Both the position numbers and the translations under genes were made by a program. A stretch of 64,000 nt of DNA from Hyaloraphidium curvatum. Taxonomy: Eukaryota; Monoblepharomycota; Hyaloraphidiomycetes; Hyaloraphidiales; Hyaloraphidiaceae. The notes beneath the pieces were generated by a model. It did no database searches, was not told the DNA's origin, and was given only the letters and a program-made list of their open reading frames with translations. Of this stretch, positions 60,605 through 64,000 are shown piece after piece. Numbering within the stretch: position 1 is the first letter of the stretch; each line of letters starts with the position of its first letter. The stretch is taken from NCBI GenBank assembly GCA_025558095.1, contig JAIVFI010000014.1, positions 124,001-188,000 of the forward strand. The letters are read 5' to 3'.

Positions 60605-61434
60605 GTACCGCGGTCCCGGCATGCCGAACGCCCTCCCACCCCTCAGCCGTGTTGCCGCCGCCGTCCCCCTTCATGTCCCCCATTTTGCTGTCCGCCGCCG
60701 TCGACCGTGGCTGCGCGGGAGGGGCGCCGAGGGGTGCAGCGCGTGAGGGACGTCCGACGGGGAGCGGCGCCGGGTTGCCCCCACCGCGCCTCGTCCAGCC
60801 GCCGCGCCGCCGCCGCCGCACAGGAACGCACGCGCCGTCACCGCGGTGGTGTCCTCCGGCCCAGGGAGCCGTTCCGGTGGACGTGGGAGCCGGTTTGGGC
60901 GAGGGGGTGTTGGGCGCGCGCTCCGCCCGGGGTCTGGCCCCCACCGGCCCGGAAGCCCCCCGGCAGGGGATCTCACTACCCATGCATTTCCCGACGGGTT
61001 TTATTGCATGAAAAGCGTGCGTATGCATCTCAACGTCCGAATCCCGCGCGCCGCCGGCGGGCGTCCACGGGGGAAAGAACTGGGCGCGAAAAGTTATTGT
61101 AGCCTGCTGCCCTGTAGCTCGGGGCTTCGCCCCTCGCCCAGACCGCTCGCTGTGCTCGCGGGGGCCGCTCCGCGGCAAAAGCTTGCAGGCAGGTAGCGGC
61201 GGGAGACGTGCGTGCCTGCGGCGGTGGGGTACGTGCCCGCTGGCGCGGGGCTCGCTGGCGCTCGCGGACCGCTCCGCGGCAGAGCTTGCAGGCAGGTAGC
61301 GGCGGGGGGAGCGATACCAGCTGCCAAACGACCTGGAATCAGTGTACCAGACGCGGCAGTGACCATTCGCGGCGCAACCTGGAACCAGTGAACCAGACTC
61401 GGCCCCGGGGAATCCATGTGGTCTCGAACGCATT
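60605..61434. repeat. Repeat-rich, hairpin-containing insert
   Basis: Two near-copies of CCGCTCCGCGGCA..AGCTTGCAGGCAGGTAGCGGCGGG lie at about 61168-61205 and 61271-61308. Two near-copies of ACCTGGAA(T/C)CAGTG(T/A)ACCAGAC lie at about 61329-61351 and 61378-61400. A GGGGC-TTCG-CCCC stem-loop is at about 61120-61133, and GCTCGCTGTGCTCGC type inverted repeats follow. No transposase frame, long terminal inverted repeat or target-site duplication could be identified, so the element class is open. Confidence 0.5.
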
Positions 61435-61715: not shown

Positions 61716-64000
61716 TCACTTGGCCTCGGCAAACAGTCCGCCCGGCCCAGCAAACACGTCGTCATCGTCGTCCTCCACCGCCTCTCCGCCATCCGTACTC
61801 GCCGCGTCCCGATCCACACCGCGAGACCCGATCCCAAACATCTTCCCGGCCAACTTCCGCTCCTCCTTTGTTCCCGCCTTTGCCAGGGCCTCCCTCCTTT
61901 CCTTCACCGCCTGCGGCACCCTCTCGCCCATCCCCCTGGCAATTTCGGCGACGGCCAGCGAGGTCTTCTCGTCCATGAGGGGCAGCATTGCCCGCCGCAG
62001 GCTGTCGAACAAGTTCGGCACCGCCGCTTCCTCCCGCTTCAGCAGCGCCTTGACCCGTTCCCGTTCGCCGGGCGCCGCGAAGCAGGCCGGGCAGTTCTCG
62101 TTGATAATTGGTAGCCCGGCCTTGACGGCAAACTCGCGCGTCTCCTTCTCCCTGACGTAGACCAGCGGCCTGATGATCCTCAGCCCGTCCTTCTCGGCGT
62201 AGCACGCCCGCATCGTCCGAAGCTGCCCGTTGCGCGACATGGCCATGTACATGCTCTCGGCGAGGTCGTCCAGGTGCTGCGCAAGGATCAGCGCGGTCAT
62301 CCCTTCGCGGCGCGCGGCGGTGTAGAGGTGGCCCCTCTTCATGCGGGCACAGTAAGAGCAGTACTCGTCGGAGCCCTGCGGGAGGGTCTGCCGCGCCATG
62401 GCAAAGATCTCGGTGCGCTCGTAGTGGTAGGGAACTCCCAGCCTGGCCATGTACGGGATCAGGGGCGAAGGATCAAAGGCCTCGGTGCCGGGATCGATGG
62501 TGCACGCCGCGAGCTCGAAGGGCACCTGGATCTGCCCGCGAAGGTGCAGGAGCACGTGGAGGAGGGACAGCGAGTCCTTGCCGCCCGAGAGGCCAAGTAG
62601 CAGGCGGTCGCCGGGGCGGATCATGTCCCATTCCCAGATGGCTTTTCGGCAAAGGAACAGGAGACGTCGAGGCGGAACAGGGTGGAGCTGAGGAGCGGGG
62701 GAGGAAAGCAGGCCGAGGACCGCGGATGCGTTCGTGCCCTGATTGCTGGAGGCGGGTTCGACCGGCAAGGCCACGCGCTGCGAGCCGATCTTGCCGTTGA
62801 CGCCACGTTTGGGCTGCTTCAGTTCGCGCTTGGTCGGGGTCGGGGCCAGAGAGGCCGTCGGGAGGGGAGGCGGCGTCGGCGAAACCCTCGCCTGTGCCGG
62901 AGCGACTGTAATGGTACCCGTCGCGGGATCGTAGGCGTCCGTTCTCCGCGGCGCCAGACAGGGCAAGCAGACCCCGTCCCCGTCGGCCGAAGGCAGCGCG
63001 CAGGCCGATTCGATGCCGTCCAATGACGCACTCTGCCCCAACCCCGCGCGATAGCGCTCGGGATTCACCACGCAAGCAGCATCCACATCGCCGTGCGGCT
63101 CACCCAGGTCCCCTGCCGCCTCAAGCTGGAGCGCCCTCCGGGCTTCGACCGGCATCGCGAACCACCTGAGTCCTCCAAGCAGCTCTTCCTCCGGCTCCGG
63201 CAGCTTCTTCTTAAGCGCTTCGAGCGGCATGGTCTCCATGATCTCCCGCGCACGGCGACGCACTTCGCGGAGGGAAGTCGTGACCGGCGCCTCCTCGACG
63301 GCGGCAGGCCCGAACGGATCAAAATCGATTGCCAGCCACCTCCGCTCGGCAAACTTGCCAAACGCAGCCGAGAATCCCCATTCTCCAGTGTTGGCATCGT
63401 GCCGATAAAGAGGCAACATCCTCCAGCCCATCTCGGCCACCTCCCTCACGGCCTCGAGCACGTGCTCAACCTCCTCCTCTGGGGCAAAGTACGCCAGCGA
63501 GAACCTCACTGCGCCCGGCCGCGCGTGCTCGGCTGGATGCTGGGACCCGACGAGCAGGTCCTCGGTGGCCTGCACAGCCGCAGGCGACAGGCCCAGCAAG
63601 CGTTGTATGTACGGCCCGGCGCACATGCACCCGGCGCGAACCTGAATGCCGTAGAGATCGTTCAGGAGGCGAGCAACAAAGTTGTGGTGGAGAAAGGCGG
63701 CTCGGCCTTCCGAGTTGGGCGGAGGATGAGGGAAGCGAACGAGGAAGGAAAACACGGGGAGCCGCGGGCCATCCTCGGGGCCCAAGAGGCACAAGTTCGG
63801 GGAGCTCCGAAGCAATTTGAGCCCGCGGGCAACCAACTCTCCCTCGCGGTCCATGATAGTCGCGACTCCGACCGCCTGCTTGACCTTGAAGGCCAGGCCC
63901 GCGCGGACACAGCCCACAACGTCCGGCGTGCCGCCTTCCTCCCTTTCGGCGCGGTCGGCGAGGTACCTGTGCCCGTCGGCCGACACGAAAAACACGGATC
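61716..64000 (-). CDS. Aminotransferase-V (cysteine-desulfurase-like) / TtcA-like PP-loop ATPase fusion, 5' end off window
   Basis: One open minus-strand frame of about 760 codons enters from the right edge. Part 1 (to about 63250) is the C-terminal part of a class-V aminotransferase: EEGGTPDVVGCVRAGLAFKV, LHHNFVARLLNDLYGIQVRA, then GCMCAGPY (active-Cys loop position), and HARPGAVRFSLAYF. The PLP lysine would be beyond the edge. After a linker of about 250 residues comes a PP-loop ATPase: RPGDRLLLGLSGGKDSLSLL (62591-62574), DEYCSYCARMKRGHLYTAAR, LILAQHLDDLAESMYMAMSR, GLRIIRPLVYVREKETREFA and INENCPACF. The paired CxxC motifs and order are those of TtcA-type tRNA 2-thiolation enzymes. Likely function: sulfur is mobilised from cysteine by part 1 and inserted into tRNA by part 2. 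The tail is acidic (EDDDDD). Confidence 0.85.
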   Translation of the reverse strand, partial: SVFFVSADGHRYLADRAEREEGGTPDVVGCVRAGLAFKVKQAVGVATIMDREGELVARGLKLLRSSPNLCLLGPEDGPRLPVFSFLVRFPHPPPNSEGRAAFLHHNFVARLLNDLYGIQVRAGCMCAGPYIQRLLGLSPAAVQATEDLLVGSQHPAEHARPGAVRFSLAYFAPEEEVEHVLEAVREVAEMGWRMLPLYRHDANTGEWGFSAAFGKFAERRWLAIDFDPFGPAAVEEAPVTTSLREVRRRAREIMETMPLEALKKKLPEPEEELLGGLRWFAMPVEARRALQLEAAGDLGEPHGDVDAACVVNPERYRAGLGQSASLDGIESACALPSADGDGVCLPCLAPRRTDAYDPATGTITVAPAQARVSPTPPPLPTASLAPTPTKRELKQPKRGVNGKIGSQRVALPVEPASSNQGTNASAVLGLLSSPAPQLHPVPPRRLLFLCRKAIWEWDMIRPGDRLLLGLSGGKDSLSLLHVLLHLRGQIQVPFELAACTIDPGTEAFDPSPLIPYMARLGVPYHYERTEIFAMARQTLPQGSDEYCSYCARMKRGHLYTAARREGMTALILAQHLDDLAESMYMAMSRNGQLRTMRACYAEKDGLRIIRPLVYVREKETREFAVKAGLPIINENCPACFAAPGERERVKALLKREEAAVPNLFDSLRRAMLPLMDEKTSLAVAEIARGMGERVPQAVKERREALAKAGTKEERKLAGKMFGIGSRGVDRDAASTDGGEAVEDDDDDVFAGPGGLFAEAK

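Follow-up and report, generated by a model that had tools for sequence, protein, structure and literature searches.

In well-studied organisms, the removal of sulfur from cysteine and the insertion of sulfur into tRNA are carried out by separate proteins. In the stretch of Hyaloraphidium curvatum DNA analysed here (the window; 64,000 nucleotides, C14:124001-188000 of a 31.9 Mb assembly of 55 contigs), an open reading frame on the minus strand, at 61716-63998, reaches the window edge and appears to combine the two kinds of enzyme. Does this locus encode one protein, and if so, what might that protein do with its sulfur? A sequence-only reading had described a desulfurase-like domain and a TtcA-type PP-loop domain in one frame, and every motif that it quoted (GGTP..RAGLAF, GCMCAGPY, RFSLAYF, SGGKDS, CSYC and CPAC) was found again.

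We read the contig beyond the window edge and recovered a single intronless frame, C14:185716-188835(-), that encodes a complete protein of 1,039 amino acids plus stop; the sequence contained no run of N. Window positions 61716-64000(-) hold the C-terminal three quarters of this frame. The start ATG, at C14:188835, corresponds to window position 64835 and lies outside the window; residues are numbered from this position, counted backwards at three bases per residue. Pfam analysis of the whole protein placed Aminotran_5 at residues 40-458 (E 1e-37) and ATP_bind_3 at residues 745-910 (E 1e-15). Both matches were above the cut-off and each was far beyond chance, confirming that the frame carries both domains. 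The N-terminal half of the desulfurase domain, PLP lysine included, is located just past the window edge. Loss of this lysine had been named as a finding that would undo the fusion; it is present as K248 in the motif SPHKF (residues 245-249) and aligns with the lysine of SufS. Extension of the contig removes the main doubt about the fusion. The features of the gene within the window are as follows.

61716-64000, minus strand: fusion gene, C-terminal part (residues 280-1039 and stop), from the reading frame and contig extension.
63114-64000, minus strand: SufS-like class-V PLP domain, in-window part (residues 280 to about 574, including a C-terminal extension), from Pfam and alignments to structures and relatives.
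63621-63629, minus strand: cysteine loop C403-M-C405 (GCMCAGPY), from alignment to SufS; both cysteines invariant in aligned bacterial relatives.
62691-63113, minus strand: linker, residues 575-715, predicted to be disordered, lacking methionine and not present in bacterial relatives.
61941-62690, minus strand: predicted TtcA-type PP-loop tRNA thiolase domain, residues 716-965, from Pfam, profiles, alignments and predicted structure.
62571-62588, minus strand: PP-loop SGGKDS, residues 750-755, invariant in 41 sequences.
62349-62360, minus strand: CSYC, with C826 and C829 as predicted [4Fe-4S] ligands, from alignment to TtuA; invariant in 41 sequences.
62082-62093, minus strand: CPAC, with C915 (predicted third cluster ligand) and C918, from alignment to TtuA; invariant in 41 sequences.
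61719-61940, minus strand: C-terminal tail, residues 966-1039, in which helices are predicted first and then an acidic end of low confidence.

The surroundings of the gene were also recorded. Its start is close to a divergent open frame outside the window (L009:4367-5563, plus strand), the translation of which is BTB/POZ-like by eye. Downstream, window positions 61154-61306 are GC-rich and contain a 24-nt direct repeat without mismatch, AGCTTGCAGGCAGGTAGCGGCGGG, with copies at 61180 and 61283; next to it is a second repeat of 83%.

The desulfurase half (residues 1 to about 575) most closely resembles SufS. SufS-type cysteine desulfurases were the nearest solved structures, and C405 (RAGCMCAGP) aligned with the catalytic cysteine of SufS (RTGHHCAMP). 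The histidines of the EHH motif correspond to those of SufS, and the region of the SufS substrate arginines (RAG, RFSL) was matched by eye; both are conserved in the bacterial relatives, and SPHK is invariant in those aligned. SufS models scored about 100 bits higher than those for IscS and NifS, and an IscS-type identity was ruled out on these scores. The earlier call of a desulfurase-like domain was sound, and its assignment to an IscS/Nfs1-like kind gives way to a SufS-like domain of a distinct family. The half scored below every desulfurase family cut-off tried; against the SufS model TIGR01979 (NCBIfam) it reached 127 bits, compared to a cut-off of 475, and a bacterial relative reached 144. 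Because of this score we file the first half only as SufS-like, a putative cysteine desulfurase belonging to a family with a GGCxCAGPY loop. No paralogue of the fusion was found among class-V loci elsewhere in the genome.

Stand-alone bacterial proteins with the annotation 'aminotransferase class V-fold PLP-dependent enzyme' were the closest relatives found for this half; identity was 41-47% for most. They share the GGCxCAGPY loop, with both cysteines invariant in the sequences aligned. One match from a bacterial genome covers residues 19-572 of the fusion, and similarity continues to residue ~572 through a C-terminal extension common to some of the relatives. In two marine alphaproteobacteria the relative lies in an operon with a 2-amino-thiazoline-4-carboxylate hydrolase and an M20 hydrolase, likely a cysteine-yielding catabolic pathway; ABC transporter and FAD oxidoreductase genes were also seen in the operon (L015, L145). 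In six other genomes the relative faces a divergent Lrp/AsnC regulator. The operon context fits a cysteine substrate, short of proof. We found no characterised member of the GGCxCAGPY family, and none of the 12 neighbourhoods contained a thiolase beside the relative.

For the second half (residues ~716-965), Pfam, the TtcA model and identity to bacterial TtcA agreed with the earlier description of a complete PP-loop module of TtcA type. The TtcA model matched with an E value of 1.6e-53; its lead over the models for TtuA and NcsA exceeded 150 bits, and TilS was also far behind. The NCBIfam TtcA equivalog model (NF007972) gave 182 bits against a cut-off of 272. Bacterial relatives of this half also fell below that cut-off, at 205-241 bits, and for this reason the model appears to be fitted to TtcA of the E. 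coli kind; we classify the half as a TtcA-type domain by sequence, not as an equivalog. The three predicted cluster cysteines, C826, C829 and C915, align with the CSxC and E-x-CP motifs of TtuA, and ENCPACF, CxxC and the PP-loop were invariant across the 41 aligned sequences. The PP-loop domain was predicted with high confidence and matched the folds of TilS, TtuA and NcsA at Z 22-25; with TilS ranking equal to TtuA and NcsA, the predicted fold by itself does not settle the substrate. No Pfam match to the Ncs6-type zinc ribbon (PF16503) was detected in the fusion.

When bacterial and archaeal genomes were scanned, 80 loci matched the TtcA-type half at 52-59% identity, mostly from Thiobacillus, Thiothrix, Acidithiobacillus and other sulfur oxidisers. 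In all 12 source genomes searched, this relative was the only TtcA-class gene, the second matches being much weaker and TilS-like. Canonical TtcA proteins from other proteobacteria (pseudomonad-type) were 36-38% identical. The sulfur-oxidiser sequences (L019-L098) form an ENCPACFA-type group, apart from canonical TtcA and below the NCBIfam cut-off.

Is the join between the halves real? The linker had no similarity to bacterial relatives at residues 575-715 and was predicted with a pLDDT below 50 over most of its length. It contains four cysteines absent from those relatives, C588, C612, C623 and C626 (the last two in CLPC; window 62958-63074, minus strand), a possible metal site or sulfur relay. 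Two genes or transcripts, or an assembly join, might share one open frame by chance. In first-order Markov resamplings, 141 codons stayed open in 630 of 5,000 cases and 226 codons in 99 of 5,000; a stretch of the linker's length thus has roughly a 13% chance of staying open in DNA of 67% GC, and the open linker by itself is weak evidence. A stronger argument for one gene comes from what two genes would lack: reading on from the desulfurase part, the first stop codon is that of TtcA, and residues 561-738 contain no methionine to start a separate TtcA part, even though the conserved N-terminus of that part begins near residue 720. The GC content of the linker by codon position (0.70/0.56/0.77) is coding-like, which also speaks against separate genes. 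A contig join in the linker, raised earlier as a possible artefact, is opposed by the absence of N from the 7.5 kb around it, inside a 753-kb contig. We regard a chance arrangement as very improbable, and on this sequence evidence the fusion looks real.

Several loci give strong matches to chitin synthase 2 (best E 5e-182), and introns occur in both protein-coding and tRNA genes, features that together point to a fungal source or a near relative of the fungi. A genome-wide search with Pfam ATP_bind_3 returned the fusion as its only match, which first suggested that Ncs6 was missing. Ncs6 is split by introns, and it was located through its zinc ribbon (PF16503) at C31, the sole zinc-ribbon match found in the genome. 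Ncs2 and Urm1 are likewise kept, as is the IscS-type Nfs1, in pieces at C36. A further NifS/IscS-like frame, with no stop across the domain, was seen at G000:C2:994492-995718, apart from the Nfs1 pieces, and the genome has several other class-V enzymes. Since Ncs6, Ncs2, Urm1 and Nfs1 are all present, the idea that the fusion stands in for the Urm1/Ncs6 relay was not borne out and replacement of that route was ruled out: the fusion comes on top of the usual thiolation genes. No obvious targeting peptide was seen at the chosen start, and from this we infer that the protein is cytosolic.

Judging from domain content and family chemistry, we favour, as probable though well short of secure, a single-chain, self-supplied tRNA thiolase in which a desulfurase is tethered to a TtcA domain and the most likely target is C32. 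The SufS-like domain would take sulfur off cysteine, using PLP on the SPHKF lysine, and C405 would carry it as a persulfide. The TtcA domain would use ATP at SGGKDS to adenylate the C2 carbonyl of a tRNA base, and that carbonyl would be replaced by sulfur held on a [4Fe-4S] cluster of C826, C829 and C915. In TtcA, TtuA and NcsA, a three-cysteine [4Fe-4S] cluster binds incoming sulfur on its free iron while ATP activates the base (PMC10067955, PMC5372739). Because free cluster iron binds sulfide in these enzymes, a direct transfer of persulfide to tRNA, as proposed in the sequence-only reading, is unlikely as worded; the desulfurase would feed the cluster, and the route probably passes through [4Fe-4S]-bound sulfide. 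The tethered desulfurase could load the free iron directly, with the flexible linker raising the local sulfur concentration. Given the predicted disorder of the linker, there is no support for a rigid channel from cysteine to active site, and no such tunnel is part of the proposed mechanism.

The target would be C32 of tRNA-Arg and tRNA-Ser(GCU), giving s2C32, a modification that requires IscS in E. coli (PMC5372739). C32 is present in this genome in tRNA-Arg ACG, CCG, CCT and TCG and in tRNA-Ser GCT. Of the four E. coli-type s2C32 targets given in PMC5372739, these tRNAs account for three; the tRNA genes retrieved from the genome did not include the remaining one, tRNA-Arg(UCU). Presence of C32 is a necessary condition for s2C32 and, because C32 is common in any tRNA set, a weak test.

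Two other readings of the protein were weighed. It might thiolate tRNA by the same mechanism at another base, such as an anticodon-loop U or a position in an organellar tRNA. TtcA, TtuA and Ncs6 are alike in fold and chemistry, their sequences are a poor guide to which substrate is used, and a review lists s2C32 for bacteria and archaea and not for eukaryotes (PMC5372739). We nevertheless consider another base unlikely, given the lead of the TtcA model over TtuA and NcsA, the lack of a match to the Ncs6-type zinc ribbon and the fact that U34 is already covered by Ncs6. Somewhat less likely still is a reading in which the fusion serves co-expression and not sulfur hand-over: the main job of the desulfurase half would be to assemble or repair the Fe-S cluster of the TtcA half attached to it, or else to break down cysteine on its own. 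TtcA does need a [4Fe-4S] cluster (PMC5372739). A catabolic role would suit the bacterial relatives of the desulfurase half, whose genes lie within catabolic operons or opposite a divergent Lrp/AsnC regulator and have no thiolase close by. Against it, one would hardly expect an enzyme with a purely catabolic function to end up fused to a thiolase. Building of Fe-S clusters, for its part, normally requires IscU or SufU-type partners. A bolder form of the tethered thiolase that we favour, a eukaryotic s2C32 synthetase with its own sulfur donor in one chain and no carrier protein, is offered tentatively and is more doubtful than likely; C588, C612 and C623-x-x-C626, lying between the two active sites, could then act as a swinging persulfide relay.

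Plasmid records, phage records, viral contigs and 299 Pseudomonadota genomes yielded no example of the fused form; the search covered bacterial, plasmid, phage and viral sequences, and in related fungi such a fusion may already be known or common. The two families were neither fused nor neighbours at the 80 loci of the TtcA half or in the 12 neighbourhoods of the desulfurase half, and the genes around the bacterial TtcA relatives showed no readable conserved set that would explain function. In a tree of the TtcA half, the H. curvatum sequence fell among gammaproteobacterial sequences on a long branch in a biased sample, and the tree is not usable for origin. Both halves are nearest to stand-alone bacterial proteins among the relatives found, and a horizontal origin, raised as possible in the sequence-only reading, is plausible. 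No prior report of a desulfurase-TtcA fusion was found in the open-licence papers searched. Each half is near a known family; their combination is what is new here, among the sequences and papers searched.

The sulfur supply to TtcA-class enzymes has been described as still unclear (PMC5372739). A natural fusion hints at a physical sulfur partner for this class and offers a one-protein system for studying the flow of sulfur from cysteine to tRNA; if the C32 reading is true, it also predicts s2C in a eukaryote.

The closest known systems compare with the fusion as follows. Bacterial TtcA of the ENCPACFA type, from sulfur-oxidising proteobacteria, shares SGGKDS, the CxxC and ENCPxC cysteines and its 52-59% identity over the whole domain, but stands alone, whereas the H. 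curvatum domain is fused and sits in a fungus-like genome. SufS and the GGCxCAGPY family have the PLP lysine, histidine and catalytic cysteine in the same positions, yet the fusion is far below the SufS cut-off, and the GGCxCAGPY family, for all its 41-47% identity, yielded no fused member among the bacteria that were searched. Ncs6/Ctu1, which acts with Ncs2/Ctu2 and Urm1 in eukaryotic cytosolic s2U34 formation, has the same PP-loop and three-cysteine [4Fe-4S] chemistry; it is encoded here by a separate gene, takes its sulfur from Urm1 and has a zinc ribbon that was not found in the fusion. A desulfurase also feeds a PP-loop Fe-S enzyme in DNA phosphorothioation by DndA and DndC (PMC10853773), in which the genes are separate, the target is DNA and the PP-loop belongs to another branch. 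YrvO and MnmA of Bacillus subtilis are, like the two halves of the fusion, a dedicated pair of desulfurase and PP-loop tRNA thiolase. A laboratory MnmA-YrvO fusion complements loss of MnmA in the malaria parasite (PMC10219651); that construct is man-made, carries an MnmA-type thiolase and has its domains in the reverse order to those of H. curvatum.
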